A DNA stretch of 64,000 nt, from the NCBI GenBank assembly GCA_037043015.1, contig CM073324.1:3403413-3467412 (forward strand), given 5' to 3'. Each line of letters opens with the position of its first letter. Positions within the stretch are counted from its first letter, which is position 1. The DNA comes from Bryum argenteum. Its lineage: Eukaryota > Streptophyta > Bryopsida > Bryales > Bryaceae. Positions 19,288-53,290 of the stretch are shown in pieces. Below the pieces are notes generated by a model, which searched no databases, had not been told where the DNA came from, and was given only the letters and a program-made list of their open reading frames with translations. Position numbers and translations under genes: made by a program.

Positions 19288-21510
19288 ATGCAAGGTGTGA
19301 TGCAATCCCAGTTGTGGGGAGGGCAGTTGACGGGTGCGTTCACTAGTACCGGGGTTCGCAAGCAGCAGGATGGGTACCTGGTCGTTCGTGCTTCAGCGGA
19401 GCGGGAGGTGAAAGCGAAGGCTGTCGCAGCTCCACCACCCGCGCTCACCGAGGACCGACTGGTGTCGCGTGTAGAGGAGCGCGACGGGTACTGGGTTTTG
19501 AAAGAAGAATATCACAAGGGCATCAATCCTGCTGAGAAGGTGAGAGTTGACCAACCTGGATCGAATTTTCTCGTATCGTAGCTCGAGTAGGATTGGTTGT
19601 AACGTGGTTAATATCATCGTGCAGATCAAGCTTGCGAAAGAGCCGATGAAATTCTTCACGGAGAATGAGATTGAGGAGCTCGCGAAGACGCCCTTCGCCG
19701 AGCTCGATTCCTCGAAGCCTGGCAAGGATGACATCGACGTGAGACTCAAGTGGTTGGGCCTATTCCATCGCCGCAAGCATCAATGTGAGTACCGGAAAGC
19801 TTACGTCTTGTCGATTCGTTCGAGTAGCTGCGGTGGCTGATGTGATGGCGGTTGTTGAGCAGATGGGCGATTCATGATGCGGTTCAAGCTTCCGAACGGA
19901 ATCACCAACAGCACGCAGACTCGTTTTCTGGCGGAGACGATCACGAAGTATGGGAAGGAGGGGTGCGCGGATTTGACGACAAGGCAGAACTGGCAGATCC
20001 GAGGGGTTGTGTTGGAGGACGTACCTGCGATTCTGAAGGGATTGGACTCAGTGGGCTTGCCGTCGATACAGACCGGCATGGACAATGTCCGGAACGCAGT
20101 GGGTAATCCTCTCGCAGGAATTGACCCTCACGAGATCGTCGACACTGCTCCGTTTTGCAAGGCCCTGAACGACTACATTATTAACTCCGGCAAGGGCAAC
20201 ACGCAGGTCACCAATTTGTAAGCCCCTCGAATCTCGACACCAGTGAGTGCGTACATGTCGTGATTGACCATTGAAATTCTAACTGATTGTTGTTGCGTGG
20301 AGCAGGCCGCGGAAATGGAACGTGGCCGTGGTGGGTACGCACGACCTCTTCGAGCACCCACACATCAACGACCTCGCGTACATGCCTGCAACGAAGAACG
20401 GCGTCTTCGGCTTCAACATCTTGGTAGGAGGCTTCTTCAGTGCGAAACGATGCGCGGAGGCCATACCCATGGACGCGTGGGTGCCAGAAAAGGACGTCGT
20501 GCCGTTGTGCAAGGCAGTTCTCGAAACGTATCGAGATCTTGGAACACGCGGCAATCGACAGAAGACTCGCATGATGTGGCTCATCGATGAGATGGTAAGC
20601 TGAGCTCCAGTCTCGAGCACGAAGCGCTTGAGATTCATCGACCATTCGCTAACGAGGTTGGGATTGTGCAGGGAGTCGAGGAATTCCGAGCGCAAGTAGA
20701 GAGCCGAATGGACGGCAAAATTGAGAGAGCAGGAGAGGATCTGGTGGACCCATCGTGGAAGAGACGGACATTTTACGGAGTGAACCCGCAGAAACAAGAG
20801 GGGCTGAACTTCGTGGGCCTTCACGTGCCAGTGGGCCGTCTGCAAGCGCCGGAGATGTTCGAGCTCGCCCGCATTGCGGACGAGTACGGGAACGGGGAGA
20901 TTCGCATCACCGTGGAGCAGAATCTCATCTTGCCGAACGTTCCCACGGAGAAGGTGGAGAAGCTGCTGAAGGAGCCCCTGCTGGAGAAATACTCTCCGAA
21001 CCCTACTCCTCTGCTTGCGAATCTGGTAGCGTGCACAGGCAGCCAGTTCTGCGGCCAGGCCATCGCCGAAACCAAAGCTCGCTCCCTGGAGCTCACCCAG
21101 CAGCTGGACGCCACCATGGAAACGTCTCGCCCCATTCGGCTCCATTTCACCGGATGCCCCAACACTTGCGCCCAAGTCCAGGTCTCGTCCTCTTCTCCCT
21201 CTGTTCAATTCCTCGACGCCTCGTGTGAACGTAGAAATCCGAAGTCTTTGGATCCCTCAAAGCTTGTGGACATGAAAAGCTGAAGTGGATGTTGTTTTTT
21301 GGCCAGGTTGCGGACATAGGATTCATGGGCACAATGGCACGAGACGAGAATCGGAAGCCGGTGCAGGGCTTCGACATTTACCTCGGCGGTCGCATCGGCA
21401 GCGACTCGCATTTGGGAGAAGTGATCCGGCCCGGTGTACCCGCGACCGAGTTGCTTCCTGTTGTGCAAGAGCTCATGATTGAGCATTTTGGTGCGAAGAG
21501 GAAAGCTTAG
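19288..21510 (+). CDS. NIR: Ferredoxin-nitrite reductase, plastid, copy A
   Basis: It reduces nitrite to ammonium in plastids with electrons from ferredoxin. Six exons join cleanly with GT/AG introns: 19288-19539, 19625-19784, 19863-20217, 20306-20594, 20672-21181 and 21307-21510. The product is 589 residues, the usual family length. The start is the first ATG of the frame and gives a Ser/Gln/Gly-rich transit peptide ending near VVRASAE. Family blocks visible include RQNWQIRGV, GNPLAGIDPHEIVDT, LPRKWNVAVVGTHDLFEHPH and GTRGNRQKTRMMWLIDE. The four cysteines for the 4Fe-4S/siroheme centre are in ACTGSQFCGQA and TGCPNTCAQ, both in exon 5. The introns are short (78-125 bp). The gene converges on the glucanase gene 1,044 bp downstream. 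It appears intact. Confidence 0.97.
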
Positions 21511-22554
21511 GGTGCGGAAAACATAGTGTATAGCATGTAAAAAGAGTAGTGATTAGCATGGTCCAGAAACCTCACCATGTTCGTGATTTCGAAGTCGCAC
21601 GTTTGCTGCGCGAAGATAAATTTTCTACATCAATATTATAACATATGTGGGATCATAGAGCCCTCAGTGTACAATACTTTCTAAGAATTCTTGCATCTAG
21701 TTCCCTGGAGTCACTTGTGATTGTTTATGATTGATATTCAGATCGTGGTGGAGAAACATGAGGCAGAAAGGAAGGCATTGGCAGGTTGAACTTTGATGTA
21801 CAGTACAGGAGTTTTAGAAATACACACCTTTTATGCTTGTGATCTCGAACAGTATGTGAGCACATGCGAACATGCCGTGCTCTTCAGGTTGTAGTGAGCG
21901 TCCGGGCCCAATGAATGGAAAAGATTCCACTCTCCAGCAAAGAGCAAGAATTTCGGAGACACCTCGTCCACAAGTTTATGGTTTTTACATAAACTTGGTG
22001 TCGCTTGACGAGTCACAGAATAACCTTGTCCACCTTGTCCACGTTATCCGAAGCCGAAAGAAGAAAGTAGAAATCCTTGGTATTGCTTGGCAAAGAGGCG
22101 GGACTCATGAGAGCTGTTTGAGTAAGAACATACAATTATGCGACCTTGTAACCCGTCATAACCCGTCATAGGTGCTAAGGGGCACTCATGTTGTTGAAGC
22201 TCATTACTGCACACTATATACCTCTTACCGATGAATTTTACGGCTCATACATAGCGGATGCTCTTCGAATCATCAGAATCGTTCAGAGCACTCTCCACAT
22301 TTATGTTTGGTGCTCTGCATCTAGATCACCTGCCTGATCAATACCAGCACCTTCCTCCCCACACACCCGACCAGGTTCGAAGATAACGGTAGAATTTGTG
22401 CTAGAAAACTGATCGAACAACATCTTGAAAGCTAGCGGTGAATTACTTCACAATATAAAGTCCTTGAATCAAGTTGCAAAGGTCGCATTCCAGAAACCCC
22501 AAGGTAATGTAATACTCTCTGAGCACTACAATAACAGCCTCCTTCGAAGCTTCA
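21511..22554. other. Convergent intergenic region between nitrite reductase and glucanase, copy A
   Basis: It holds the 3' UTRs of both convergent genes and no further gene. The ORF at 21872-22171 is repeated unchanged in copy B but has no domain, and its conservation follows from the identical tract. A short direct repeat (AACCCGTCAT twice) lies near 22149-22170. Confidence 0.4.
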
Positions 22555-23927
22555 TCAAATTCTAAGATTGAAAAGAGAACCAAGGATCGAAACAGACATG
22601 GGAAGTACACTAGGTTTGTTACGACAAGTGTTCTCCGCTTCTTCTTCACCACCACCAGGCGAACCACCAGAGCTCGTCGACGTAATCTCGATCGGATACA
22701 CAGGGCTACCACTCGGGTACAGAAGGCCCCAGTTCCGCTCCGTCGAAGCCCCAGGCTTCAAGTTTTCATTGTACAGCGCGAAGATGAATGTAGGTATGAA
22801 GATCCCCGGTCGCATCGGCGTGCCCGGCGTCGGAGTATTGAGCACATGCCGCACCAGATTCTGGTTATAAGTCTGTGCATTCGAGATGCTCGCTCCGAGC
22901 TCGTTTGAATCGCCCGCTGTCGGCCACCCTGTTTCACTGATCGCAATCCGGACGTTCCCATACCCGACTGCGGCCATAGCTGCCACCATTGCATCCAACT
23001 GAGCATCGAGCAGATTGTAATACTGATACTGCGAGTCGTTGTAAAACGAGGTACTCCGTGTGAACAAGGCATAGTCCAAGGGGATGTACTGGGAGTTTGA
23101 AGCCCAGCCGAAGTAGGGGTAAACATTGATAAACAAATACGAGCTTGTGGAGTCAAGATGCTGCAACAAGGGTGTTAGCACTTGGGTTGCAATGTCCGTG
23201 CGAAAGACGCCTTTCGATGGAGGGTAGGAGAGTGATAAGATGCTATACTCCGCGGCAGTGGAGACTTTGATCGCCGACAAGTTGCGATTCTCGAGGCTCG
23301 TGTGGAGGTTTTGGATGGCCGGTACGAGTTGGACCCAGGTGGCGCTCAGAGTTGAGTCCGCGAACAGCTCGTTGCCTACTAAGATGTAGACGATGTTGGT
23401 TGCTGGGTAGTAGGGCACGATGTTCGCCACCACCCACGCGTCTGCAGCGCTCGCATCCACTAGCGGCGCGATCTCGTTGTTTCCCAGTCCGATCACCAAG
23501 TCCAGGTTCGAGCCTGCGAACGCCTCGATCGTTGGCCCATCGTGGTCGAATATCCTGACGCGCCCGACTCCTCCTAACCCCTGGATTAGCTTCACAATCG
23601 CGTTTGCTGACGGCAGGTTGTCTCCAACTCTTCCATAGTTGATTCCTAGCGTCCGGGGCTCTGGCATCGACATCACCCATGCATTTCATTAGCCCTACGA
23701 ACTAATTCACTTTGAGCTTGCCTAAATTTAGCACGATAGCAAAGTGAAAGTTTCGCACCATCGGGATAGTTGGCGGCAGCTGTGACAATGGATGAAAGTA
23801 GAATCAAGATACAAATCGTGCTCCAGTACCCATTCCCTACACACGAACCGCCTTCACCGCAAGAAGAAGCTGATCTCTGACCTTGCCCAAATCGTCTCAA
23901 CCTCGTGTTGTCATCACCTGGCAACAT
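22555..23927 (-). CDS. Glucan endo-1,3-beta-glucosidase (GH17), likely GPI-anchored, copy A
   Basis: It is a secreted GH17 enzyme acting on 1,3-beta-glucan (callose-type) wall polymers. The main exon (22555-23660) holds the whole catalytic domain: LGINYGRVGDNLPS near the start, the acid/base Glu in ILVGNELFAD, and the nucleophile Glu in AISETGWPTAGDS. It ends with a Ser/Gly/Glu-rich linker and a weak hydrophobic tail, as in GPI-anchored members. GH17 genes usually carry an intron just after the signal peptide. Here an upstream exon 23927-23759 with the hydrophobic stretch STICILILLSSIVTAAA joins in frame through a 98-bp GT/AG intron, giving about 424 residues. The upstream ATG is a choice; another in-frame ATG is at 24026. 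The main exon is certain, the first exon probable. Confidence 0.85.
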
Positions 23928-24440
23928 CTCTCTCGCTCCAGTAACGATCGACACACAACTGAGGGCGATCGACACACAACTGACGGCGATCGACAAGCAA
24001 CTGAGTGGCTTCTCCAAGTCGACCATTCAGCTTGCGCAATCAGAGGTACACAATGTTCACAACAACAAGCTCGAAGTTCACACTAAATTGGCCACAGATG
24101 CTTTAACTCACGGCAGTGAACTGAAAAATCTTCAACTACAAATCCACAAGCTTTAATTTGTGATATACGAATTACTGCTAATGAGGTGAGTAAACTAACC
24201 CAATAGAATGATCAGTTTGTCGAATCAAACCTGCAATATCTAACATGGCCCAGTACTGAAGGTCTGAACGACAGAAGCTCGCACTTGCTTGACATCAAAG
24301 TGTGAGACAACCACGCTAATGTCTCGATCGATCGCAGTGCAACAGCAAAAGCAATCTTCGGGCACATGCATGGAAAAGGTCGCTCCAATAATGGTGCTCG
24401 CTTCAAAAGTTGAATTCTTTGTGCGACGGTTCTGCACGAT
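23905..24440 (+). pseudogene. Relic ORF with heptad repeats, copy A
   Basis: The plus strand reads IDTQLRAIDTQLTAIDKQLS, a coiled-coil-like heptad encoded by three 21-bp tandem units (about 23946-24008). After a frame change it continues QYLTWPSTEGLNDRSSHLLD and then DNHANVSIDRSATAKA, with TAG and TGA stops between the pieces. Copy B keeps the same pieces and the same stop positions at lower identity, so decay began before the copies diverged. It overlaps the first glucanase exon on the other strand. No family was recognised. Confidence 0.35.
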
Positions 24441-25252
24441 GCATGAAGGACTTGCCCGACCTCTTTCCCGACCCCAAGCTGTATATCAGCTCGAAGCTAA
24501 ATATCGGAGCGCTAAGGATTGAAGCGCGAACTAGCGCTAAGGATTGAAGCGTGAACTAGCTGCAACGGACTTGGAGCTAGTATTGAATGGAGATGAGAGG
24601 AGTGGAGTGGCAAAGCACGATTACCGATGCGGCATTTCACGTGCACTTGGTCGAAGAGTCGATTGCCAGAGGGAAGCATTTGTGCCCACAACGAAGCTCA
24701 CAGTCTGCGGGTCCGGTCCGGCACTCCAGCAATGATATGATTGTCTGCCGTTCTGAGGAGTTGTGCCTCAGCCAGCCAGAGCCTGACTGCCTGCCATTAT
24801 GTATATGGTTTCGTATGCGTACGATATTTTGGATACGGTTATTGTTGGATGCTTTTGAATTGGTCGTGTTGACTGGTAACTTTCTCACAGCTTCCAAGAC
24901 TGTACAATTACCCCTGCAGGTCCCTAATTGTGAGTAAACTGTGTCGTTGCCATCGTAGCTTGAATGAGCAAGGTTCTCTATGATTCCCGCTTTAGCTTCA
25001 AACACTCGTAGAAATATGGCTTGAGTATACCAACCATTATACCAAGGAGTACACTTTGGATGTGGATCACCAATTTTGGGTGTCTTTGTGTGGTCTAGTA
25101 AAGCCCCTTTTATACGAGTGAAAGGAGATACGGAATTTGTATGGCAGGAATCCAAACCCCACATTTGAGGAACGTTCATTGTAAATCAGTAAGTATTTTT
25201 TGCAAGGCAGTGTTTTTCTTCAAGGTATAAGTCTATTGTCGGCAACCTAGTA
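24441..25252. other. Diverged duplicated non-coding DNA, copy A
   Basis: This is homologous to about 53300-54320 in copy B at roughly 85-90% by eye. ORFs at 24544, 24587 and 24637 are not conserved in frame between the copies. The stretch contains the empty site TGCAGGTCC (24915-24923) of the MITE present in copy B. Confidence 0.45.
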
Positions 25253-25395
25253 GTAGTATGCGTTGGAGGTAAAAAGTTGTAGTGTCTATTGGAGGTAAGT
25301 AGTTATGGTGTCACTTGGAGCTAAGTAGTTGTAGTATCCTTTGGAGGTAAGTAGTTGTAGTAACCGTTGGAAGTCAGTAGTTGTAGTGACCGGTG
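25253..25395 (+). repeat. 26-bp minisatellite, copy A
   Basis: About five to six diverged tandem copies of a roughly 26-bp unit built on GTAGTTGTAGTGTCCGTTGG plus AGGTAA. The same array occurs at 54320-54461 in copy B, where the units are more regular. Confidence 0.7.
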
Positions 25396-36198: not shown

Positions 36199-36408
36199 GA
36201 AGCTGTTGCGGACAGCAACTCCAAGACAAGATCAAAGACAAGATTGAGGGGAGACTCCAAAAGGAGACCAAGATAGACTAGAAGTGAGGGGATTCCTCAC
36301 GCAAGATTCAAAACGACACTCAAAGTAAGAGAACAGAGAGTAGTATTGATAACTGGAAGAGTAGGTACAACTGGTGTTGAAGAGAGTGAAGAACAACGAC
36401 CTTCAACT

Positions 36409-36650
36409 CTTTATATATACTAGGCTAGAAGAAACTTCCGGAGTAAGGTCCTAGAGGCCTTGGGAAGCTCCTATGGAACCTTCCGGAGACTCGTGGGAGC
36501 TTCCGGAATCTAGGAAGGTCAAACGGAACCTTCCGGAAGTTTATGGAACCTTCCGGAAGCTTAGAGGAGCTTCCGGAAACTATTAGAACTATCTGGAAGC
36601 TTGTGGAAGCTTTCGGAAACTAGTGGAAGGTTCTAGAACCTTCCAGAAAA
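36409..36650 (-). promoter_or_regulatory. Heat-shock-element array plus TATA box in the solo LTR
   Basis: Between 36427 and 36650 alternating GAA/TTC units, spaced by two bases, recur many times. One run at 36626-36648 has five perfect alternating units. Two perfect trimers (GGAACCTTCCGGAAG) lie near 36526 and 36545, with several more partial sites. On the minus strand the array lies directly upstream of TATATATAA (36411-36419), the usual order of heat-shock promoters. Transcription would start near 36385, inside the LTR. Activity is inference; the motif arrangement is seen directly. Confidence 0.7.
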
Positions 36651-36745
36651 CTTAAACTTGCAAAATATACGGAATCTAGGAAGTCTTTGAGAAGTAGGGC
36701 TGATCACGATAAACTCATGGGGTGTGCATAATACCCAGTATGGCA

Positions 36746-38264
36746 TGTGAGCCATCTAAATGACTCATTAACAAAGATTTGCTTAACTTTGCAAATTTTG
36801 AGTAAATGTTTTATAAAAAACTTCTAAAAACTCTAATTCATTTTACTTATGTTCTTTGATTATTTAAGCGACTCTAAATTCTAATCCTAGTTTCCATTTT
36901 AATTTAATTCCCCATACTAATTCTCTAATTTTAGTATTTGGTTATATAGCCATTTCAATTCAATTCCCATTCTAATTTTCTAATCTTATTATTTGGGTAA
37001 AAGCCATTTTAATTTAATTTCTCATACTAATTTTTTTGATCGTAGTATTCGGTTAAATAACCATTTCATTTTTATAGCCTCTACTAATTTTCTAACCATA
37101 TAATTAGTCTAATAGCCCATTTCCGTTTATTCGCCCATACTAATTTCTACTCGCAGTAATTAGTTAATAGCCATTTTCCATGTTCCGCCCATACTAATTT
37201 CTTAACGCAGTAATTAGTTAATAGCCATTTTCTCATAACCTCAACCCATACTAATTTCTGGCCACACTAATTAACCTCCGCCCACACTAATTAAGTGCCG
37301 CCCACACTATATGGTGCGGCGACTACACTAAGTTACATAAAAATGATCTGATAAGTATGAACTCCAATAATTCACCACTACGCCGCCTCCCTCACTTAGT
37401 GAGTTGAAATTGTCTTCAACTTGATGCTATAAGTAGTTTTCTAGTTTTGCAATTGAGACCACACACACAATTTATCATTACTAGTTTTCTTGATGATCAG
37501 TAGAAGTTCGTTTTTTTCCGTTTCTCTTTTTTCAGCGTGGTTTGTGAATCTTCATCTCTGGTGGCTGAAGCGTTGAAGAATTACCGGTTGTTGCAACGAT
37601 ATTAGTTTCTTCCCGGAGGTGCAATTGCCGCGGCGACAAAGACAATGACTCGTGGATCGGCGTTGTTGATGTGAGTCTTTGGCGTGTATGTGGTCGGTCG
37701 GATTGAAGCCGGAAGAGAAGTCGTTGTTGAAGTGCACGGGGTTTGTGAGACGATCCTGCCGAAGAGTGATGGTGTGACGACGGACAAGGTGTAGGAAGTC
37801 GTGACATCTCGAGCTCGCCGGTGTTGTTCTTGATGGACTGAGATCCGGAAGCGCTCGTAGAAAATTTGGTCTTGAAGGCGAAATTTAATTTTTACTTGTT
37901 CATTGTGTAGATGTAGGATAGTAAGGTGAGACACAAAAATGATCAAAATCGGAGTTAAAATGAGGAAGTTATGAAGGTTTTTAGTTAGGAAGTTTTTTTT
38001 TCTAAATCATCTCCAAATCTGCTTTTTCTCAAAACAGTCATCCAATTGTTTTCATCCAGCAATATTTGTTTTTCATCCACAAGCGTTGTTTTCATCCGAA
38101 GCGTTGTTTTCATCCAAAGGCGTTGTTTTGATTCAAAGAAATATTGTTTTTCATCCAAAGAAGAAGATTGTTTTCATCCTCCAACATTATTTTCGTCGAT
38201 CTTTTCAACTCGTTGTGTTGTTATTAATTCCTCGAAAGACGGTGGGAGGATTTTTTAGCTCACA
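36746..38264 (+). repeat. 5' LTR of the nested Ty3-type element
   Basis: 1,519 bp, TGTGAGC to GCTCACA. It differs from the 3' LTR mainly in the GC-richer second half (37370-38160). That half includes an array of short TTTTCATCC-type repeats (about 38045-38180). Confidence 0.92.
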
Positions 38265-38266
38265 TT

Positions 38267-38283
38267 TGGTGCGTCTGCCGGGA
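38267..38283 (+). promoter_or_regulatory. Probable primer-binding site
   Basis: TGGTGCGTCTGCCGGGA starts two bases after the 5' LTR and begins with TGG, complementary to a tRNA CCA end. The tRNA species could not be assigned. Confidence 0.55.
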
Positions 38284-38595
38284 TAATCAAACCATTGCTT
38301 GGAAGGCAATTTAGTCATGTTGAAGGAGCAATATAGTGTTGAGTAGGTATGTTGAGATCATTAGTTAGATAAACTAAAATTTTCTTTTAGGTTAGAAGTT
38401 TTTCAAAGTTAAGTTAGTTAGATACAAGTCAATTTAGGTTTGAAGTAGCTCAAAATTAGGTCTAAGTCAAGTATTCAACTTAATCAAGGCATGTTGAGAA
38501 ATAGCCTTGGTAGACTTAGATTAGATTTAGAACACTTCTAGCACATAGATTAGTAACAGTGTAGAGTAGATAGTAAGTTTTTAGATCAAAGGGAC

Positions 38596-38644
<49 letters not shown>

Positions 38645-39422
38645 AAAGAAGGAAAGTACTTGAAGGGATTACAACAAATTGGAGCATGGAGTAAAGCTGG
38701 GATTTGGGGTCGTGATTGGATTGCAATATCCGGGTAAGTAAAATTTCTGCATATGGCAACAGGTGTAAGGGTTAGAGACCTTAGAACCGTGATCGCTAGG
38801 CATTGATTAATGTTTGATCTTCTTCGACATCCAGGTAAATGTTCTTCAAAGTGTTTTATGTGTAAAATTCACCAAAGAATGGATTTTGTACCGTAATTTT
38901 ATGTCGTTTGCTATTGTAGTGGGTAAATCCAGACCTATCAATTGTGGAGGAAGCGAAAGTGGGTAGGCTCCCCTGCTGCCGCGGTGGCAGAGTTTTTTCT
39001 TCACAAATTGGTAGTATAAGGTCAGCCCCACACGTTAGTTGTCTGTATAGCATCTAGGTGGTCTTGGACAGCCTTGCATTGGGATTACCATGCAGTTAGG
39101 TGTTCAAGCAGCCTAGGTGTTGTTTGCCGTTTCCTTTCCCTGCCGGAAAGTTTTATAAATCTAAGTGGGTTGCAGATTCTCTACTTAATTAACCTCCAGA
39201 ATTTTTTTACTAAGGTGAAACTTAAAAGCTTCCAAGTGTGTAGGGAATTTAGAACTTAGTTGAGGAGTTTAGACTTAAAGCAGCTATAGTTACTAGGACG
39301 TGATCGAATAGATTAGAGCAGTACCTATGTTACTTATTGGGATTATACGGGTTACATTCTACATTTGGAAACCTTGGTAAGTTTAATATCCTAACTAAAT
39401 TTTTTTTTGAAGTTATGGTTGA
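38284..39422 (+). other. 5' leader of the nested Ty3-type element
   Basis: Untranslated internal region of about 1.1 kb containing a long A tract (about 38601-38647, interrupted by G). ORFs here on either strand are not supported. Confidence 0.6.
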
Positions 39423-42400
39423 ATGCAACGATCAACTAGGTCACATAAACCAATCTTAGTAAGGCCTTTACAACGATTTAGAGCACTACCTAATACTGCT
39501 TCGCGTTTGAGATCTGTTGGAAATTTAGACACAAACGTTAATTCACAAGTTCAAGCTATAGACGATTTTATAGAAGTTAACTTAGACAATTTAGAGGTTC
39601 TTGCAGATACTGGATCTCCATCAAACCTATTTCCGGTGTTCAACCAATTTGATTTGCCGTTAGAGTTTGAAATCATGGAACCACCCGAACCTCCACCAAT
39701 TAACCCCTTGGTTCGACCAAGGGGTTTGCCTATAGTTGTGCCAGAGGGCCTTCAAGCCGCGCCTATGCCTCCAAATCTTCCCATTTTTAGAGGTTCTAGA
39801 GATGAAGATCCCTCGGCTCATGTTGAGCAATTTATCGAGATGCTCACAACGTGTTTGATCACGGATGGTAGGTATTATTTGGTGTGGTTTCCGACCACAT
39901 TAAAAGATATGGCTTATGAATGGTATTGCAATCATCCCGCAAATACGTTCATCACATGGGACATCGCAACGAGCATTTTGGAACACTTCGGACCGAGGTA
40001 GGTCAAAGTGCGGCATTAACCGCTCTATCATCGCTTAGGCAAGGTCAAGATGAAGACATTTCGTCTTACATTCGCCGGTTTGAGTTAGTGGTCACTCGAT
40101 TTGTCGGTAACTTGTTAACCGATGACACTCTCCAACATTTCTTCATTCAAGGTTTTTGTAAAGAAACTACGATTAAAGAAGTATTGCATGCCCGACCTAG
40201 GAATCTAGCCGATGCCAAAGAGGCCGCTAGGTTGGTTGAACAAATTAACAAACAACATGAACGATTATGGAGAAGAGAGGACCAAAACATACCAAGTTTT
40301 ATACCAATTCACGCTAGGCCCTTACACGAGAATGTACAGCGTGCAACCACTCACAAGCCGGTGGTAAATCCATCCTACCCCGTGCCTTTGAACACGAGAT
40401 TTCCAACGGATACGTTAGCATTGACATATCCGGTTAGCAATGATAGATGGAAGGAAGAGATTAAAGCCGAATTACAAGCCTCTCAGAAGGGATTTCATGA
40501 TCAAATTGCTCAACAACTTAAGTCTATGACTGAACAAATGTCTATGATGATTAGGAACCAACAACCAAATTCCGTTCCTCCTCCAATAGAATCCGGCCAT
40601 CATGCTTCCGGTTTGTGGTGCACAAACTGTGGGCAACCAGGTCACAGTGACCAATTCTGCCAAGTTGCGCCAACTTTGCGCCCGTCACAGGGTAAACAAC
40701 CGTTTAATAGCATTCAACCATATGGTGAGTCAAATCGTCAAGATCGTGGTTATGAGTCTCAAAATCAAGGTCCTAGAGGTCAACGACGTTTTAGACACGA
40801 AATTCATCCATTTTGCGGTAGAAGGCATCCACCCGGTAGTTGTTGGTTAGAGAATGGTGTGATTTGCGGTAATTGTGGTGGAAATCACCCTACCGATGTG
40901 TGCAACCGGCCAGATAAGGTAATTCCCCTGAATATGCCTAATTACGATTATGCTCGTCAAGCTCAAGAAAATTTGAGGGGATCTCGCCAACCTTCGGGTT
41001 CTAACAACCTAAGACCGCCCAATTTGTTTTATGATTATGCCCAAAATAGGCAAAATCATAATTCTCCGTCGGCATTGCAAACAAACCGTGGTACAATTCC
41101 TTTAAATCAGGGGACAAATCAAGGGGTAGGACCATCTCAATCTAATGCAAATTTTGCCCATGGTACGCAAGATGTTAGATTTTCGACCGAGCCATTAATA
41201 CCACCAACCATTAACGGCGGACCATCTATTGCTTCTACCTCACAAGTGCCTTCTCAAATGAACCTAATTCTACACGAACTCGCGATGGAAGAACCGGTAC
41301 AAGGTGCCAATGTACCAACGTTAGCAGTTATGACTAGATCGCAACACACGAAACCAATTCTAACATCAATTGATGAAGAAAGTGCTTCGGAAGATTCACC
41401 GCATTTATCAGATTTAAATCATACATTGAAAAATGCGGTAGAAGACACTTTAAAAGAAGGTGTCCAAAATTCTATACTCCAGCCAACTCTGCTTCCATTT
41501 GATCGATCGCCTAGGGACGAGGAAGAAAGGCTAGGTGAATTCTGGGAAGGACCAACAATACCGGAGTTGGAAAAGTTTCCCCCTCCGTTATTGGAGGAGC
41601 CAACCATCGTGACATCGTACGATTTGATATCGGATCTCACTCGCCTTAAGGCAGACATTTCGATTGCTCAATTGCTAGAGCTTGTCCCAAAGCTGTTAAA
41701 AGGGTTCAAAAAACAATCAACGACAAGACGAAGGCAGAGGAGGCCAATCGCAAGAACCGGTGCTAATTTGGTTAAAATCAAACCTTTTGCTGTAAAAGCT
41801 ATCGAGATTGAGGCGTCCATAGTAGATAAGGTTATACCCAATGTGGTTGTCGATAGTGGTAGTGGGCTCAACATTATGCCTCTTAACACTATGGAGAAGC
41901 TAGGATTGTCTATTACCGGCAAATCTCCCTATATTATTAACATGGCAGATCAAAGTGAGGATAAGCCGTTGGGAGAGATCAAAAATTGTAAAGTAACCTC
42001 GGGAGGAGAGGAATACTCCGTTACTTTCCAAGTCGTTAGAATGAAAACCAACAAGCATGGTTATCCTTTATTGTTAGGGCGTCCATGGTTACGACTTGCG
42101 GCCGCTAAGACCGATTGGGGAGGAAACAAACCACATATGTTGTATGGACCCCCTCACAACATCACCAAGGTGAGAATTAAACCTGAGAACGCTTTTTGTG
42201 ACGATTGGGACTCTTCAAGTGATGATGAATTACCGGTAGCAATTTCACGAAAGGATAAAGGCAAACAAGTTCAATTTCCAAAACCGGAGTCTAGTGTCAT
42301 ACCTCAACCCGAAACTACACCAATTCGTTGTTTAGGCCCGGCTTTGTACGATTGGGAAGATGAAGGGGGTTTTGCCCAATGGTTGGCAAACCACCCCAAC

Positions 42401-42877
42401 TCTAATTCGGACGTTAGTGTTTCTATTAACTTCATTGAAAAATTCACCTTAGTTCCGGAAGACACGAGAGGGTCGAACCTTGTAACCTTTCTAGATGATG
42501 TGCGTTACGAAGATGTGTTTGAATTGAGTATGGATGGGCGATTGTCAGATAACGCATCTTTGAGTCATAGGTTGGGAGTTCTAGAAGGTTTGAATGAAGC
42601 AAGGCGTACAAGCGCCCAACATGTGGAAGTCATCCAACGGCGAAGGAAACTAACATATGACAAAAGGAACAAAGTTAGAACCCTTCGACCGGGTATGTTG
42701 GTTTTATTACAAGATGCGCGATGCTTGGACTTTCCGGGTAAATTTGATGCTCTATGGATGGGACCATATATTGTGAAGGAGGTGTTTCACAACAACACCG
42801 TTCAATTACAAACTTTGAACGGTGAAGACTTCCCTACCCGAACCTCGGGAAGTCGGTGCAAAGAGTACAAAGTGTGA
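39423..42877 (+). CDS. Gag-protease-integrase C-terminus polyprotein of the Ty3-type element, one frameshift
   Basis: It starts at ATG 39423. The Gag core runs NLPIFRGSRDEDPSAHVEQF to ATSILEHFGPR and then shifts by one base near 39996, continuing GQSAALTALSSLRQ in the frame open from 39920 to 42877. The break is inside the conserved Gag fold, so a mutation or sequencing error is more likely than programmed frameshifting. Zinc knuckles are visible as CTNCGQPGHSDQFC and CGNCGGNHPTDVC. The protease has VVDSGSGLNIMP and ends PLLLGRPWLRLAAAKTDW. After an acidic linker the frame runs directly into an integrase C-terminal region (KLTYDKRNKVRTLRPGMLVL, then FDALWMGPYIVKEVF). There is no YxDD reverse transcriptase motif and no integrase HHCC or DDE core. 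Confidence 0.85.
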
Positions 42878-44027
42878 TTTTAAAATCGCAAGTCTTATAA
42901 ATTTTTAGCACTAATTTTCTTTAGTCTACGTCTAGGTCTAGGATATCATTTTCCCACATTAATTTTGGTCGGGGATATTGAAGGTCTTAGGCTCAAGGCA
43001 TAGGCGTAGGAAAGCACTTAACTTCCTTTAACTCCTAATTCTTTGTTCCTTTTTTCAATTGCGACATCTTATGATGAACAAGTTAGGTGATTAGAAGGGG
43101 AAGTGTCTATGATAACCTTACTTACTAATAGGTATTTAGTAGTATTATTTCCTATTTTCAATTTTGACTTTCTTAGCCTTCTATCTAATATGTTTTCTAT
43201 TCAGTAGTTTCAGTTCAAACCATTAGAGGGAGAATTTTGTTTCATTAACTTCTCTTTTAGAAAGTGATAATTATATTATTTGGAGTTAGCTCATAGTTAC
43301 TAATTTTTAATTTGTTTCCAAATCAAGTAGTGAAGAGGAAACCTTGAATTTTAATTTTGACTCGTAAGCCTTTCATGGTTTACAATTTCTTTCTCTTAGT
43401 CCAAACCCACTCTATTGGAGGAGGTGTAATCTACTCTTCTAAACTCTAATATAGGTCCAAGTCATTTTTACATGAGGCGGACAAGTAACTTTCTATGCTA
43501 TAATTTTATTTTTAATCTTTTTATTGGTCGCTTCAAACTAATGTAGGAAGTAGGAAATGTCGAGTATACTAGGGTATTTTGCGGAGCAAAGAGCATCCCG
43601 TAGCGGTCTTGGTTAATTGACATAGCCGGTCGAACGACGTGCGTTCGAACCCGGTAGTTGGTAGCGCTATTCTCACTGAGCTAGTGGTTAGGCAGGAATT
43701 TAACCGATTGACCCGGGATATATATATTAACTATCCCAAACCGGTATTCCGGGGAGGTTATATCTACTTACTTTTATTTCTTTTTCTTTTCCATTTAAAT
43801 TTTCTTTCTTATAGACTACTAACTAGACACTCTTTTTCCAAGCCAAATCCATTTGCGTAGGGATTTCTAATTCTTCCACTCAGCCTCTATCTCCTTTTTC
43901 CGGTACTAATATCAACTTTCTTAACTATTAGTATAGACCGTGTGCCTCTAATCTTGTAGAGCGTCGTAGCAAGAGATTCTGGATTCGTTTTACTTGTTTC
44001 ACAAGTAACCCCAGATGGTGCGCCATG
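42878..44027 (+). other. 3' untranslated region of the Ty3-type element, with a tRNA-like stretch
   Basis: Non-coding sequence of 1.15 kb. At 43601-43652 a box-A-like TAGCGGTCTTGG is followed 31 bases later by GTTCGAACCC, which matches the RNA polymerase III B box. A second box-A-like CTAGTGGTTAGGC follows at about 43681. The stems do not fold into a full tRNA, so a captured SINE fragment is the likelier reading. Confidence 0.4.
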
Positions 44028-45568
44028 TGTGAGCCATCTAAATGACTCATTAACAAAGATTTGCTTAACTTTGCAAATTTTGAGTAAATGTTTTATAAAA
44101 AACTTCTAAAAACTCTAATTCATTTTACTTATGTTCTTTGATTATTTAAGCGACTCTAAATTCTAATCCTAGTTTCCATTTTAATTTAATTCCCCATACT
44201 AATTCTCTAATTTTAGTATTTGGTTATATAGCCATTTCAATTCAATTCCCATTCTAATTTTCTAATCTTATTATTTGGGTAAAAGCCATTTTAATTTAAT
44301 TTCTCATACTAATTTTTTTGATCGTAGTATTCGGTTAAATAACCATTTCATTTTTATAGCCTCTACTAATTTTCTAACCATATAATTAGTCTAATAGCCC
44401 ATTTCCGTTTATTCGCCCATACTAATTTCTACTCGCAGTAATTAGTTAATAGCCATTTTCCATGTTCCGCCCATACTAATTTCTTAACGCAGTAATTAGT
44501 TAATAGCCATTTTCTCATAACCTCAACCCATACTAATTTCTGGCCACACTAATTAACCTCCGCCCACACTAATTAAGTGCCGCCCACACTATATGGTGCG
44601 GCGACTACACTAAGTTACATAAAAATGATCTGATAAGTATGAACTCCAATAATTCAGCTCACGGCCGCCCTCCCTCACTTAGTGAGTTGAAATTGTCTTC
44701 AACTTGATGCTATAAGTAGTTTTCTAGTTTTGCAATTGAGACCACACACACAATTTATCATTACTAGTTTTCTTGATGATCAGTAGAAGTTCGTTTTTTT
44801 CCGTTTCTCTTTTTTCAGCGTGGTTTGTGAATCTTCATCTCTGGTGGCTGAAGCGTTGAAGAATTACCAGTTGTTGCAACGATATTAGTTTCTTCCCGGA
44901 GGTGCAATTGCCGGCGACAGTACAACAGACTCGTGGATCGACGTTGTTCAGTGACGGTGCTGGCGTGTATGTGGTCGGTCGGATTCGAAGCCGGAAGAGA
45001 AGTCGTTGTTGAAGTGCACGGGGTTTGTGAGACGATCGCCAAGAAGAGTGATGGTGTGACGACGGACAAGGTGTAGGAAGTCGTGACATCTCGAGCTCGC
45101 GGTGTTGTTCTTGATGGACCAGATCCGGAAGCGCTCGTAGAGGGTTGGTCTTGAAGGCGAAATTTAATTTTTTACTTGTTCATTGTGTAGATGTAGGATA
45201 GTAAGGTGAGACACAAAAATGATCAAAATCGGAGTTAAAATGAGGAAGTTATGAAGGTTTTTAGTTAGGAAGTTTTTTTTTCTAAACTCGCTCCCGCTCT
45301 GCTTTTTTTTCTCAAACAGTCATCCAATTGTTTTCATCCATCCAGAATTTGTTTTCATCCACAAGCGTTGTTTTCATCCGTAAGCGTTGTTTTCATCCAA
45401 AGAAAGCAGCGTTGTTCCAAAGAAGAAATTATTTTTCATCCAACAGACTGACTGTTTTCATCCAAAGAAGATTGTTTTCATCCTCCAACATTATTTTCGT
45501 CGATCTTTTCAACTCGTTGTGTTGTTATTAATTCCTCGAAAGACGGTGGGAGGATTATTTAGCTCACA
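44028..45568 (+). repeat. 3' LTR of the nested Ty3-type element
   Basis: 1,541 bp with the same termini as the 5' LTR. Differences from it cluster in 44655-45480 and include several short indels. Confidence 0.92.
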
Positions 45569-45589
45569 TGGCACGTCCGTGACAGAAGC

Positions 45590-47504
45590 AAATCAACAGA
45601 TTAAATATAACTGAAACACCGATGAATTTATGAACCGAGAGTATTCACATTAAGTGAGGAACAAAGTTGATCATTGAGGGTGAAGATTGAGGAAAACTTG
45701 TCCAAGCATATGGTGAGTATTAGATTATTTTATTTCGTTTTGTAAAGTTGTAAATCTAACGCAGAAGAAATGACTCCTCCACCAACTTTAAAAATCAGTG
45801 CCGAATCAGATTGCAGACTCGAGGCGTTAGCAAGGATTGAAATAGAATTCTATTTTGTAAAACAACTGATTATAAGCAGTCAGCTCTTGCATTTGCATAG
45901 CATTGAGATCGAGGAATGATTGAACAATAGGATTCAAATGCATTCGCAAAAACTTGAATGGATTCTGATTAGAAAGCAGTTACGAGAGTTGTTGGAAAGT
46001 TTGGGATTTTGGCGTTCATGTCACCACTGCAAAGTTTGCACGGTGATAGGGTGCACCACAAGGATTTAAGTTTTGTAAACCACTGAAATATGTTGACAGT
46101 ATACGGTATCTATTTGCAAAACTATCAATTAAAAAGTATTTGTAGAGTTTGATTAGAACCTATGTTTATAGTTTTAAATTTGGATATTACCCTTGACTTT
46201 GAGTTTGATATTTGTGTGTTTTTAGAGACGTTACGCAAGTTTATAAGACTTATTGACATAAGTTGGATCCTAAGGTTTGTGTTTTTACCAAATTTAAGGG
46301 TTATACTAAATTCTGAGTGTACAAATTTCCGATCCTTAAAGTTTGAGCTGAGTGTGTCTTTGGGTTGTACGACATATTATCATATGAAAAGAATCAATGA
46401 CGTGAGCCGATTGGAAGTTGCATAGTAGTATATAGATTATAATCATGCCTTGCATTTGAAAATATTGACACACTACTCGATAGGCATTATGTGTATAAGT
46501 GCGTATACATATAGTGGGACTGAACCTACTAACCTATACATATTTCTACTATTTCAAATATCATCTTGGCATTCTGATTATATAATAGCCACCATTGCAG
46601 TCTATTGACATATCCTGACTTATTGACCACAACTATGGACTACCCTTAAAACATTAGATAGGACCGAGACAACATTGTGTATAGAATTTGGGTAATGGAC
46701 AGTCACCCAAATCAAATTCTGTGATTTGTGAAATAAGAGTAAAATCCGCAAGCCGAGTTGCACGCAAGTTTATACTATTATATATAGAAATAAATACATT
46801 TGATTGACATGTGACCTTAAATACAAATACAATAGACTACTTAGCTTTTCTGTTGATAAACTACACTATACTATAAGGAGTTTTGAATAATGCTAAAACC
46901 TTATGAGAACATTGTCTTCAATAGCGCCATAGAAATGTATAGTGGTGTGAAAAATGCTACATTTAATTGTAAGGTTGCACCACACCACTTTAAGCTATGG
47001 AGTAATTGATATTTGAGAAAAAATAATGTAAATTACACTACTTACTTATACCCTTATTGATGCTAAATTAATATACATTATACTTATGTAATAATAACTT
47101 ACTTACGTACGCTCACGTATAATAATATACTCTCAATAAAATAATAAATAATAGAACCCTTACTAGAGATACTTTTAGAGGTTATGTACATATTAAAGAA
47201 TAGGACTATGAACAAATTTCCATAACTCCTAAGAGCCCAATCAACCATTTTATGTTAAATACCAAATTTCGAGGAGTTGCACCACACTAGAATAATAATA
47301 ATTTTTGAATTCTTTTCTACTTTGCAGAAACACGGTGCCTTGAGAACATTGCCCAATTTGGAGAACCTCCTTTGGATTCACAAATTTATCACTATAAACC
47401 TTCAAACACAAACAGGGCAATGATTCCTTTGTGCACGAAAACATACTAATTTGGGAAACTAGTACTGATTCACTTAGGCAGAAACAGGGAGTGGCGGAAG
47501 ATGC
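45590..47504. other. Intergenic DNA between the solo LTR and duplication copy B
   Basis: AT-rich; no gene or bounded element recognised. The ORF at 46162-46425 has no domain. Confidence 0.35.
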
Positions 47505-48153
47505 AGAGGATTGAAGGACAATGAGTGGGTGGATGGTGCGAGACATTTGCCTGCAGACGCGCAAGATCCCACTGGGGCAACCACATAGAAGGCGCCACCT
47601 GCTGCTACTTTATTACAATATTGTTTCTCCCCAAGTAAAAAGGAATGGATCTCAATGGGGGGTAATGTCCTGAGGCGACGACCTCCGCTACCATGTGAGC
47701 GGCGACAAGTCCGGCATAGCTGCTCGCGTCCTCGAGCTGGCTCGTGGCAACAGGGCTTCTTTCTTCGTTACCAAAAGTGCCCTGCCTGCACTATCGCCTC
47801 GCCGCGTATTCTCAACCGCACTTTGCCATCATCCCGCCTGGGTATAGCTTGTACCCCGCACCCACATTACCATAACAATCGTACACTGCCACTCAACTCC
47901 TACCTGCACGTGCTCTCAACGCGCGCATTGCTCATACATCAATCGATATCAGGTGTTTGCTCAATTCCCCTCTTCTCACATTCCGAGACAGTGCACTGCG
48001 TGCGGTAGTGGGATAGAGAGCAGAGTGTTGTTGTGTTTCGGGTCTTGACTACAGTTAGTAGTGAGAGTTTCTACAGGTTGGGGGTTGTGGAGGTTTTAAG
48101 CTGATTTGGTGAGGTTGCTGCAGGTTGCGGGGAATCGTTTGGGAGTGGGTGCG
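47505..48153 (+). promoter_or_regulatory. Nitrite reductase upstream region, copy B
   Basis: Same as 18639-19287 except C at 47748. The duplicated upstream sequence ends at 47505, so distal control sequence differs from copy A. Confidence 0.5.
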
Positions 48154-50376
48154 ATGCAAGGTGTGATGCAATCCCAGTTGTGGGGAGGGCAGTTGACGGG
48201 TGCGTTCACTAGTACCGGGGTTCGCAAGCAGCAGGATGGGTACCTGGTCGTTCGTGCTTCAGCGGAGCGGGAGGTGAAAGCGAAGGCTGTCGCAGCTCCA
48301 CCACCCGCGCTCACCGAGGACCGACTGGTGTCGCGTGTAGAGGAGCGCGACGGGTACTGGGTTTTGAAAGAAGAATATCACAAGGGCATCAATCCTGCTG
48401 AGAAGGTGAGAGTTGACCAACCTGGATCGAATTTTCTCGTATCGTAGCTCGAGTAGGATTGGTTGTAACGTGGTTAATATCATCGTGCAGATCAAGCTTG
48501 CGAAAGAGCCGATGAAATTCTTCACGGAGAATGAGATTGAGGAGCTCGCGAAGACGCCCTTCGCCGAGCTCGATTCCTCGAAGCCTGGCAAGGATGACAT
48601 CGACGTGAGACTCAAGTGGTTGGGCCTATTCCATCGCCGCAAGCATCAATGTGAGTACCGGAAAGCTTACGTCTTGTCGATTCGTTCGAGTAGCTGCGGT
48701 GGCTGATGTGATGGCGGTTGTTGAGCAGATGGGCGATTCATGATGCGGTTCAAGCTTCCGAACGGAATCACCAACAGCACGCAGACTCGTTTTCTGGCGG
48801 AGACGATCACGAAGTATGGGAAGGAGGGGTGCGCGGATTTGACGACAAGGCAGAACTGGCAGATCCGAGGGGTTGTGTTGGAGGACGTACCTGCGATTCT
48901 GAAGGGATTGGACTCAGTGGGCTTGCCGTCGATACAGACCGGCATGGACAATGTCCGGAACGCAGTGGGTAATCCTCTCGCAGGAATTGACCCTCACGAG
49001 ATCGTCGACACTGCTCCGTTTTGCAAGGCCCTGAACGACTACATTATTAACTCCGGCAAGGGCAACACGCAGGTCACCAATTTGTAAGCCCCTCGAATCT
49101 CGACACCAGTGAGTGCGTACATGTCGTGATTGACCATTGAAATTCTAACTGATTGTTGTTGCGTGGAGCAGGCCGCGGAAATGGAACGTGGCCGTGGTGG
49201 GTACGCACGACCTCTTCGAGCACCCACACATCAACGACCTCGCGTACATGCCTGCAACGAAGAACGGCGTCTTCGGCTTCAACATCTTGGTAGGAGGCTT
49301 CTTCAGTGCGAAACGATGCGCGGAGGCCATACCCATGGACGCGTGGGTGCCAGAAAAGGACGTCGTGCCGTTGTGCAAGGCAGTTCTCGAAACGTATCGA
49401 GATCTTGGAACACGCGGCAATCGACAGAAGACTCGCATGATGTGGCTCATCGATGAGATGGTAAGCTGAGCTCCAGTCTCGAGCACGAAGCGCTTGAGAT
49501 TCATCGACCATTCGCTAACGAGGTTGGGATTGTGCAGGGAGTCGAGGAATTCCGAGCGCAAGTAGAGAGCCGAATGGACGGCAAAATTGAGAGAGCAGGA
49601 GAGGATCTGGTGGACCCATCGTGGAAGAGACGGACATTTTACGGAGTGAACCCGCAGAAACAAGAGGGGCTGAACTTCGTGGGCCTTCACGTGCCAGTGG
49701 GCCGTCTGCAAGCGCCGGAGATGTTCGAGCTCGCCCGCATTGCGGACGAGTACGGGAACGGGGAGATTCGCATCACCGTGGAGCAGAATCTCATCTTGCC
49801 GAACGTTCCCACGGAGAAGGTGGAGAAGCTGCTGAAGGAGCCCCTGCTGGAGAAATACTCTCCGAACCCTACTCCTCTGCTTGCGAATCTGGTAGCGTGC
49901 ACAGGCAGCCAGTTCTGCGGCCAGGCCATCGCCGAAACCAAAGCTCGCTCCCTGGAGCTCACCCAGCAGCTGGACGCCACCATGGAAACGTCTCGCCCCA
50001 TTCGGCTCCATTTCACCGGATGCCCCAACACTTGCGCCCAAGTCCAGGTCTCGTCCTCTTCTCCCTCTGTTCAATTCCTCGACGCCTCGTGTGAACGTAG
50101 AAATCCGAAGTCTTTGGATCCCTCAAAGCTTGTGGACATGAAAAGCTGAAGTGGATGTTGTTTTTTGGCCAGGTTGCGGACATAGGATTCATGGGCACAA
50201 TGGCACGAGACGAGAATCGGAAGCCGGTGCAGGGCTTCGACATTTACCTCGGCGGTCGCATCGGCAGCGACTCGCATTTGGGAGAAGTGATCCGGCCCGG
50301 TGTACCCGCGACCGAGTTGCTTCCTGTTGTGCAAGAGCTCATGATTGAGCATTTTGGTGCGAAGAGGAAAGCTTAG
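48154..50376 (+). CDS. NIR: Ferredoxin-nitrite reductase, plastid, copy B
   Basis: Exons are 48154-48405, 48491-48650, 48729-49083, 49172-49460, 49538-50047 and 50173-50376. The encoded 589-residue protein looks the same as that of copy A, and introns as well as exons appear unchanged by eye. The metal-centre cysteines (ACTGSQFCGQA, TGCPNTCAQ) are present. Two intact genes for one enzyme suggest extra dosage or differently regulated copies, since only about 650 bp upstream is shared. It converges on the broken glucanase copy downstream. Confidence 0.97.
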
Positions 50377-51420
50377 GGTGCGGAAAACATAGTGTATAGC
50401 ATGTAAAAAGAGTAGTGATTAGCATGGTCCAGAAACCTCACCATGTTCGTGATTTCGAAGTCGCACGTTTGCTGCGCGAAGATAAATTTTCTACATCAAT
50501 ATTATAACATATGTGGGATCATAGAGCCCTCAGTGTACAATACTTTCTAAGAATTCTTGCATCTAGTTCCCTGGAGTCACTTGTGATTGTTTATGATTGA
50601 TATTCAGATCGTGGTGGAGAAACATGAGGCAGAAAGGAAGGCATTGGCAGGTTGAACTTTGATGTACAGTACAGGAGTTTTAGAAATACACACCTTTTAT
50701 GCTTGTGATCTCGAACAGTATGTGAGCACATGCGAACATGCCGTGCTCTTCAGGTTGTAGTGAGCGTCCGGGCCCAATGAATGGAAAAGATTCCACTCTC
50801 CAGCAAAGAGCAAGAATTTCGGAGACACCTCGTCCACAAGTTTATGGTTTTTACATAAACTTGGTGTCGCTTGACGAGTCACAGAATAACCTTGTCCACC
50901 TTGTCCACGTTATCCGAAGCCGAAAGAAGAAAGTAGAAATCCTTGGTATTGCTTGGCAAAGAGGCGGGACTCATGAGAGCTGTTTGAGTAAGAACATACA
51001 ATTATGCGACCTTGTAACCCGTCATAACCCGTCATAGGTGCTAAGGGGCACTCATGTTGTTGAAGCTCATTACTGCACACTATATACCTCTTACCGATGA
51101 ATTTTACGGCTCATACATAGCGGATGCTCTTCGAATCATCAGAATCGTTCAGAGCACTCTCCACATTTATGTTTGGTGCTCTGCATCTAGATCACCTGCC
51201 TGATCAATACCAGCACCTTCCTCCCCACACACCCGACCAGGTTCGAAGATAACGGTAGAATTTGTGCTAGAAAACTGATCGAACAACATCTTGAAAGCTA
51301 GCGGTGAATTACTTCACAATATAAAGTCCTTGAATCAAGTTGCAAAGGTCGCATTCCAGAAACCCCAAGGTAATGTAATACTCTCTGAGCACTACAATAA
51401 CAGCCTCCTTCGAAGCTTCA
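50377..51420. other. Convergent intergenic region, copy B
   Basis: Equivalent of 21511-22554 with no difference noticed. It holds the 3' UTRs of the flanking convergent genes. Confidence 0.4.
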
Positions 51421-52789
51421 TCAAATTCTAAGATTGAAAAGAGAACCAAGGATCGAAACAGACATGGGAAGTACACTAGGTTTGTTACGACAAGTGTTCT
51501 CCGCTTCTTCTTCACCACCACCAGGCGAACCACCAGAGCTCGTCGACGTAATCTCGATCGGATACACAGGGCTACCACTCGGGTACAGAAGGCCCCAGTT
51601 CCGCTCCGTCGAAGCCCCAGGCTTCAAGTTTTCATTGTACAGCGCGAAGATGAATGTAGGTATGAAGATCCCCGGTCGCATCGGCGTGCCCGGCGTCGGA
51701 GTATTGAGCACATGCCGCACTGCATTCTCGGTTATAAGTCTGTGCATTCGAGATGCTCGCCCGAGCTCGTTTGAATCGCCCACCGCCGGCCACCCCGTTT
51801 CACCGATCGCAATCCGGACGTTCCCATACCCGATTGCGGCCATAGCCGCCACCATTGCATCCAATCGAGCATCGAGCGATTGTAATATCGTCTGCGAGTC
51901 GTTGTAAAACGAGGTACTCCGTGTGAACAAGGCATAGTCCAAGGGGATGTCTTTGGGAGTTTGAAGCCCACCAAGTAGGGGTAAACATTGATAAACAAAT
52001 ACGAGCTTGTGGAGTCAAGATGTCGCAACAAGGGTGTTAGCACTTGGGTTGCAATGTCCGTGCGAAAGACGCCTTTCGATGGAGGGTAGGAGAGTGATAA
52101 GATGCTATACTCCGCGGCGGTGGAGACTTTGATCGCCGACAAGTTGCGATTCTCGAGGCTCGTGTGGAGGTTTTGGATGGCGGTGACGAGTTGGACCCCA
52201 GGTGGCGCTCGAGTTGAGTCCGCGCAACTCGTTGCCTACTAAGATGTAGACGATGTTGGTTCTTTGGGTAGTAGGGCACGATGTTCGCCACCACCCACGC
52301 GCGTCTGCGGCAGCTCGCATCCACTAGCGGCGCGATCTCGTTGTTTCCAGTCCGATCACCAAGTCCAGGTTCGAACTGCGAACGCCTCGATCGTTGGCCC
52401 ATCGTGGTCGAATATCCTGACGCGCCCGACTCCTCCTAACCCCTGGATTAGCTTCACAATCGCGTTTGCTGACGGCAGGTTGTCTCCAACTCTTCCATAG
52501 TTGATTCCTAGCGTCCGGGGCTCTGGCATCGACATCACCCATGCATTTCATTAGCCCTACGAACTAATTCACTTTGAGCTTGCCTAAATTTAGCACGATA
52601 GCAAAGTGAAAGTTTCGCACCATCGGGATAGTTGGCGGCAGCTGTGACAATGGATGAAAGTAGAATCAAGATACAAATCGTGCTCCAGTACCCATTCCCT
52701 ACACACGAACCGCCTTCACCGCAAGAAGAAGCTGATCTCTGACCTTGCCCAAATCGTCTCAACCTCGTGTTGTCATCACCTGGCAACAT
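51421..52789 (-). pseudogene. GH17 beta-1,3-glucanase, copy B, frame broken as given
   Basis: The 3' end (51421-51720) and the 5' end (52400-52789) match copy A. Between them several one- to three-base indels shift the frame repeatedly, so the catalytic domain is spread over at least three frames. The nucleophile motif persists as IGETGWPAVGDS, whereas the segment around the acid/base Glu reads in different frames. Nearly every difference from copy A falls on a CTG or CAG triplet of A (for example CACTGATC against CACCGATC, and CAGCCGAAG against CACCAAG). This could be true decay or miscalling at methylated CHG sites. The first exon with the signal peptide is preserved. Confidence 0.75.
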
Positions 52790-53290
52790 CTCTCTCGCTC
52801 CAGTAACGATCGACACGCAACTGAGCGCGATCGACACCCAACTGAGCGCGATAGACACACAACTGAGCGCAGCAGCCCAACAACCCAGGGGCTACTCCAA
52901 ATCCACCATTCAGCGCGAGAGGTACATAATACTCACAGCAACAAGATCAAAGTTCACACTGAATTGGCCACAGATGCTTTCACTCACGGAAATAAACTCA
53001 AAAATCTTCAACTACAAACCCAAAGACTTGTGTGAAATACGAATTATCGCTAACGAGATGAGTAAACGGACCCGATAGAATGATCGTTTTGTCGAATCAA
53101 ACTTGCAATATCTAATATGGCCCAGTACTGAAGGTCTGAACGACAGAAGCTCGCACGTGCTTGACATCAAAGTGTGAGACAACCACGCTAATGTCTCGAT
53201 CGATCGCAGTACAACAGCAAAAGCAAATTTCGGGCACATGCATGGAAAAGGTCTCTCCAATAATGGTGCTAGCTTCAAAAGTTGAAAGCT
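52767..53290 (+). pseudogene. Relic ORF with heptad repeats, copy B
   Basis: Three 21-bp units encode IDTQLSAIDTQLSAIDTQLS (about 52808-52870). Later pieces QYLIWPSTEGLNDRSSHVLD and DNHANVSIDRSTTAKA match copy A, with stops at the same places. Identity to A is only about 80-85% here, in contrast to the near-identical sequence just to the left. Confidence 0.35.

Follow-up and report, generated by a model that had tools for sequence, protein, structure and literature searches.

Retrotransposons driven by heat-shock elements (HSEs) in their long terminal repeats (LTRs) are already known, namely ONSEN and other Copia elements, and so is a heat-induced Gypsy element of a moss, RLG2. For ONSEN (COPIA78) of Arabidopsis, both binding of HSFA2 and activation by heat have been shown, and the promoter is described as free of CG and CHG (PMC3907296). 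In the Brassicaceae, the Copia elements COPIA37, TERESTRA and ROMANIAT5 gained HSEs in their LTRs repeatedly and in part independently, and LTR elements with HSEs of at least four units are reported with up to thousand-fold heat induction, those with three units with up to hundred-fold (PMC5059998). In the moss Physcomitrium patens, the Gypsy LTR element RLG2 is strongly induced by heat and by ABA in RNA-seq, and RLG1, also Gypsy, is repressed by heat shock (PMC7466625); the available text of that study mentions no HSEs. In the fungus Cryptococcus, the LTR elements TCN3 and TCN12 carry putative HSEs (two and one, respectively) and move only or almost only at 37 C (PMC12810828). Heat-induced Gypsy elements are also listed in a review and in a bamboo study, with no mention of HSEs in the available text of either (PMC9780303, PMC8656106). 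Finally, the Tcn1-clade chromoviruses, found only in mosses and club-mosses in one survey, carry a chromodomain and are related to Tf1/Sushi, for which self-priming is known, and self-priming is predicted for most of the moss and club-moss elements (PMC6317226). For the Selaginella element SM-Tcn1, the authors found neither a tRNA site nor self-priming (PMC2864245). The available text of these two papers mentions no HSE or heat response, and the word heat is absent from that of PMC2864245. A search of the open-licence literature, as far as its text was available, found HSE arrays reported neither for self-priming chromoviruses nor for LTRs of mosses.

Here we describe such an array in a solo LTR located in a 64-kb stretch of a moss-like genome (the window, meaning the whole stretch of DNA that was analyzed). 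The array resembles ONSEN in placing HSEs in an LTR, but it belongs to a Gypsy chromovirus and not to a Copia element, it is longer, it has a self-priming layout next to it and CpG within the HSE spacers, and its heat response is putative. The repeated and partly independent gain of HSEs recalls the Brassicaceae elements, all of which are Copia elements of flowering plants, whereas the elements described here are mainly Gypsy and come from a moss-like genome. A chromodomain and a predicted self-priming layout are shared with the Tcn1 clade, and the long array differs from the one or two putative HSEs of the fungal elements. We read the feature, with a probability of roughly 0.75, as the U3 promoter of a chromovirus with self-priming layout, on which trimers of heat-shock factor (HSF) would switch on transcription upon heat or other proteotoxic stress.

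The main part of the feature was found to be one LTR of a repeat family, hereafter family A, with 46 matches from 40 scored of 403 candidates in a search of the genome (258.8 Mb, 25 contigs). The original prediction of a solo LTR of 553 bp was borne out on both counts, since the two parts of 542 and 11 bp have TG...CA ends and a 5-bp target duplication, and internal element sequence is absent on both sides. The solo state is considered genuine because the flanks differ from the internal ends of full-length copies. These copies (for example L009) were recovered by the genome search for full-length relatives that the same prediction had proposed, and their purine tract and frames place the sense of family A on the minus strand of the window. 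The coordinates of all features are given in Table 1.

Table 1. Features of the family A solo LTR and of the element nested in it (window coordinates)
Feature	Position	Strand	Basis or remark
Solo LTR of family A, main part	36204..36745	- (sense = minus)	TG...CA ends and matches to full-length copies
Last 11 bp of the family A solo LTR (sense 5' end), severed by the nested element	45574..45584	-	CGTCCGTGACA after the nested duplication
Solo-LTR target site duplication GAAGC, left copy	36199..36203	.	
Solo-LTR target site duplication GAAGC, right copy	45585..45589	.	
Younger nested LTR element	36746..45568	.	own duplication TGGCA at 36741-36745 and 45569-45573
HSE array	36409..36650	-	21/27 GAA/TTC triplets in one 10-bp register
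Perfect five-unit HSE	36626..36648	-	
Perfect three-unit HSE	36546..36558	-	
Perfect three-unit HSE	36526..36538	-	
TATA box TATATATAA	36411..36419	- (36419-36411)	
Predicted RNA 5' end ACTCTCTTCAA, start site 36387	36377..36387	-	exact complement of the primer-binding site of full-length copies

The nested element inserted 11 bp within the sense 5' end of the family A LTR, that is, upstream of the HSE array, and left the HSEs, the TATA box and the start site whole. Its own 1.5-kb LTRs (36746-38265 and 44028-45568, 94.5% identical) contain a repeat of roughly 55 bp and no HSE run of three or more units. Repeats at 36889-37224 were considered as part of the family A LTR and rejected, as they are located in this nested element. 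Between its LTRs lie frames of 192 and 985 aa; in the latter, gag and protease are matched weakly and short of the Pfam cut-offs, and reverse transcriptase (RT) is not matched in Pfam. Downstream of the solo LTR, the region 28-36.2 kb has eight listed frames of at least 75 aa, of which six are on the minus strand. None of the eight matches a Pfam family at E 0.01, so there is no sign of a host gene driven by the window LTR, and this possibility was rejected as unsupported; genes in short exons could be missed by such a scan. Scans of the window with Rfam (gathering threshold) and for tRNAs found nothing. The window also contains a 6.3-kb direct repeat, 97% identical between its copies at 18625-24923 and 47489-53768, behind which lies a stretch that is 85% identical between 24908-25392 and 53981-54462.

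The units of the array keep a common 10-bp register and are arranged as both inverted and direct repeats. In the window copy, 21 of 27 triplets fall into this register, as compared to a best value of 7 among 2000 shuffles. The five-unit run, the two perfect trimers and the TATA box immediately downstream on the minus strand, all of which had been called from the letters beforehand, were each recovered, and together with further dimers the HSEs are located upstream of this TATA box. The window copy, having five units, thereby carries an HSE of at least four units in its U3. None of 5000 dinucleotide shuffles of the LTR had three runs of at least three units or any run of at least four. When the whole 64-kb window was shuffled 200 times, a five-unit run never appeared and a run of at least four units appeared in 6 shuffles. 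Runs of at least three units had a shuffle mean of 1.1 and a maximum of 5, the same number as in the real window, so trimers alone are within reach of chance on the scale of the window. The family A array holds 9 CG and 8 CHG sites, several of the CpG lying within HSE spacers.

Pfam searches with three open frames of one full-length copy, L009, identified gag, protease, RT, RNase H, integrase and chromodomain, and the integrase also matched a Tf2-1-like SH3 domain. Judged by these domains, family A is a Ty3/Gypsy chromovirus. Membership in Copia, and with it in the ONSEN group, was rejected on the Gypsy domain order of L009 and on the CG and CHG sites of the array. In the translated chromodomain, inspected by eye, F, W and Y occupy what we take to be the spots of the aromatic cage. 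The earlier suggestion of a possibly independent case in a bryophyte is kept in a modified form: the element is Ty3/Gypsy and not Copia like ONSEN, and a bryophyte fits the Tcn1 clade as described for mosses and club-mosses (PMC6317226).

The full-length elements also revealed the probable mode of priming. In five of five family A elements, TTGAAGAGAGT is found just inside the LTR, after GT, and its exact complement, the 11-mer ACTCTCTTCAA, begins 32 nt after the start of the TATA box. One element of family B and one of family D have the primer sites TTGTCGAGACT and AGTCTCGACAA, respectively, with the same spacing. A complement between primer site and start site was therefore present in 7/7 elements (five of family A with an identical primer site, one of B and one of D), 11-13 nt long and 2 nt after the LTR, with the start-site sequence 30-32 nt after the TATA box. 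In all seven, this complement is longer than in any of 200 LTR shuffles. Between A and B/D, three two-sided changes keep the complement, which counts as one independent contrast. As a layout, this corresponds to self-priming of the Tcn1/Tf1-sushi type in place of a tRNA primer site. Because the complement sets the position of the start site, transcription of the window copy is predicted to begin at 36387, which supports the minus-strand promoter starting at about 36385 of the original prediction.

Exact cassettes were found 150 times genome-wide for family A and 231 times for families B, C and D (defined by their LTRs alone, with at least one cassette counted twice), while the reversed-pattern controls gave 0 and 0. 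Perfect five-unit HSEs occur at 797 places versus 200 for the reversed pattern, a comparison in which long runs are counted several times and the reversed control is itself repeat-rich. The first 100 listed of the 797 places, all on contigs C1 and C2, represent 42 loci, of which 30 lie at most 400 bp from an exact cassette. Among the other 12, four are LTRs by matching or reading (C1:39357149, C2:10635316 and the two ends of the Copia element described below), five lie 5.5-5.9 kb from a cassette, i.e., about one element length, and two carry the 23-mer of family C; we infer an LTR origin for these last seven. At the twelfth, C2:10383622, no sign of an LTR was found around the perfect five-unit HSE, and no frame in the surrounding 6 kb was recognisable by eye as a heat-shock gene.

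The arrays differ in their design. Family B has nine perfect HSE units in one run, and each of its 40 scored LTRs (the best among 473 candidates) shares at least 99% identity with the query. The HSEs of family D are built from 24-27-bp repeats. Among the arrays read, CpG were counted 0 times in D, 2 times in B and 9 times in A. A small Copia element with a YVDDL motif and the duplication CTATA is bounded by identical LTRs of 95 bp, in which a five-unit HSE precedes TTATATAT, and in those of its relatives that were checked and had both LTR halves listed, about 100-116 bp lie between the halves. At L048:447-541 and L070, this LTR contains hardly anything besides an HSE and a TATA box. The primer site of the same element, GTTATCAGCACGAG, may fit half of what we take to be the edited tRNA-Ile. 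A primer site fitting half of an edited tRNA-Ile has been reported for Bianca elements (PMC6317226).

Among 20 diverse cassettes, 12 have a run of at least three units within 400 bp and 8 have no strict run of that length there, so strong HSEs are not universal in the lineage. A related cassette at L057 has a short U3 without an HSE dimer and the near-HSE letters GAAGCGTCTCGAA, possibly a decayed or nascent array. Family A cassettes also follow one another every ~5.9-6.0 kb at C6:11223312-11287323, seven in one direction and then four in the other, and the same pattern occurs at C1:19777637-19829995 with five and then three in the opposite direction; by their arrangement, both chains are tandem LTR elements in opposite orientation. 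Five HSF DNA-binding matches were found in the genome, each a partial one over profile positions 1-59 of 100, and HSP20 genes at 43 places.

A shared register could result from repeat duplication alone, and conservation of the array was therefore tested among 37 family A LTRs (the window copy and 36 others, including six pairs). Matches that were truncated or split were dropped from this set, which affected every L013 match except one, the L015 matches of this kind and one end of L016; L001-L008, which repeat the window or later loci, were dropped as well. A run of at least three units was present in 37/37 LTRs, one of at least four in 33/37 and one of five in 30/37, and the TATA cassette in 36/37. 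With every column masked that is CpG in any copy, nucleotide diversity was 0.022 in HSE cores, 0.079 in spacers and 0.041 in the rest of the LTR (core vs spacer p 2e-4, core vs rest p 0.002, both rough because the copies are related by descent and the columns depend on one another). When each pair contributed one LTR and the window copy was excluded, the values were 0.022, 0.075 and 0.044 (p 8e-4 and 0.003, equally rough). Core bases are three- to four-fold less variable than the intervening spacers. When the register was shifted by 2-4 bases the difference was reversed, and when it was shifted by 1 the difference was kept (0.030 vs 0.069). Across the whole family A array, clearly higher variability is confined to a single spacer phase (0.078), with 0.037 in the second spacer phase and 0.022-0.035 in the cores. 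The control triplet pair CTA/TAG, the sole pair with enough sites, showed no difference (0.041 in cores, 0.028 in spacers). In six promoters of the B/C group, cores were again less variable than spacers (0.153 vs 0.249, p 0.012), but relative to the rest of the region they showed no reduction (0.153 vs 0.142). We read the conservation of the cores as the likely result of selection that once acted on active elements to keep the HSE letters and left the spacers freer, as HSF sites require.

These patterns also bear on the possibility that the array is an ordinary short tandem repeat of 10- or 20-bp GGAAG/CTTCC units that arose by slippage, with the HSE match as a by-product and no binding of HSF. 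Such an origin would be in line with the common 10-bp register and the inverted and direct repeats, and the 200 occurrences of the reversed pattern imply that repeats of this kind are common in the genome. However, slippage alone predicts equal variation in cores and spacers, which is not what was observed, and HSEs also arise from the different repeat of family D and stand before the TATA box in a Copia LTR of just 95 bp. We consider this explanation unlikely. We regard it as distinctly improbable that HSFs bind the array but respond to a physiological trigger other than heat, such as drought and rehydration, ABA or development, via other HSF members. The induction of RLG2 by ABA as well as heat in P. 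patens, that of other elements by dehydration or rehydration (PMC7466625) and the five HSF matches speak for such a trigger, but in LTR elements of the Brassicaceae it is the long perfect HSEs that are found with the strongest heat responses (PMC5059998). A role of the array in silencing, or as the site of a different factor, on a promoter that is dead in its host is very improbable, for although the CpG of the family A array and the eight diverse cassettes without strict HSEs would agree with it, the six family A LTR pairs differ at 1-6 of 567-615 sites (in one pair, L017/L018, the LTRs are separated by 14 kb and perhaps do not belong to a single element) and the 40 B copies with the best scores are nearly identical, which indicates that A and B promoters worked recently.

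The reading as a heat-activated chromovirus promoter starts from what the sequence itself holds, namely the conserved array, the TATA box, the complementarity of 11 nt and the coding domains of a full-length copy. From these, HSF binding, heat induction and self-priming in the cell would proceed as follows. Upon heat or other proteotoxic stress, HSF trimers would bind the GAA/TTC array and the RNA would begin 32 nt downstream of where TATATATA starts. Where the element is full-length, the leading 11 nt of this RNA would then anneal to the primer-binding site at the inner edge of the LTR and serve as primer for reverse transcription, and heat would in this way trigger transposition. The intact promoter of the window solo LTR could drive a minus-strand RNA from its predicted start site, and heat-triggered copying is to be expected of its full-length relatives. 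Taken together, the anatomy of the promoter and the conservation of the HSE cores make heat-responsiveness likely. Methylation could silence the family A array, given its CpG, whereas the promoter of ONSEN is free of CG and CHG.

The recurrence of this design in related families suggests that heat turns these elements on. Tentatively, and with somewhat less than even confidence, we propose that several LTR families, comprising one lineage of Copia and two promoter lineages that have the self-priming layout, convergently built HSE arrays, that the heat-shock response is their shared switch and that perfect long HSEs reside mainly in LTRs, as is the case in the sampled part of the genome. HSE-driven activation has been worked out in Copia elements of flowering plants, as far as the available text of the cited studies goes, and here it would concern Gypsy chromoviruses with a self-priming layout in a moss-like genome. 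Owing to the self-priming layout, the transcription start is predicted with single-base precision, and the promoter is for that reason easy to test. Likewise, several families with different array designs open the question of how frequently, and for what reason, the heat-shock response is captured by retrotransposons. If this proposal is true, a single heat wave could set several families moving together and disseminate heat-responsive promoters via solo LTRs.
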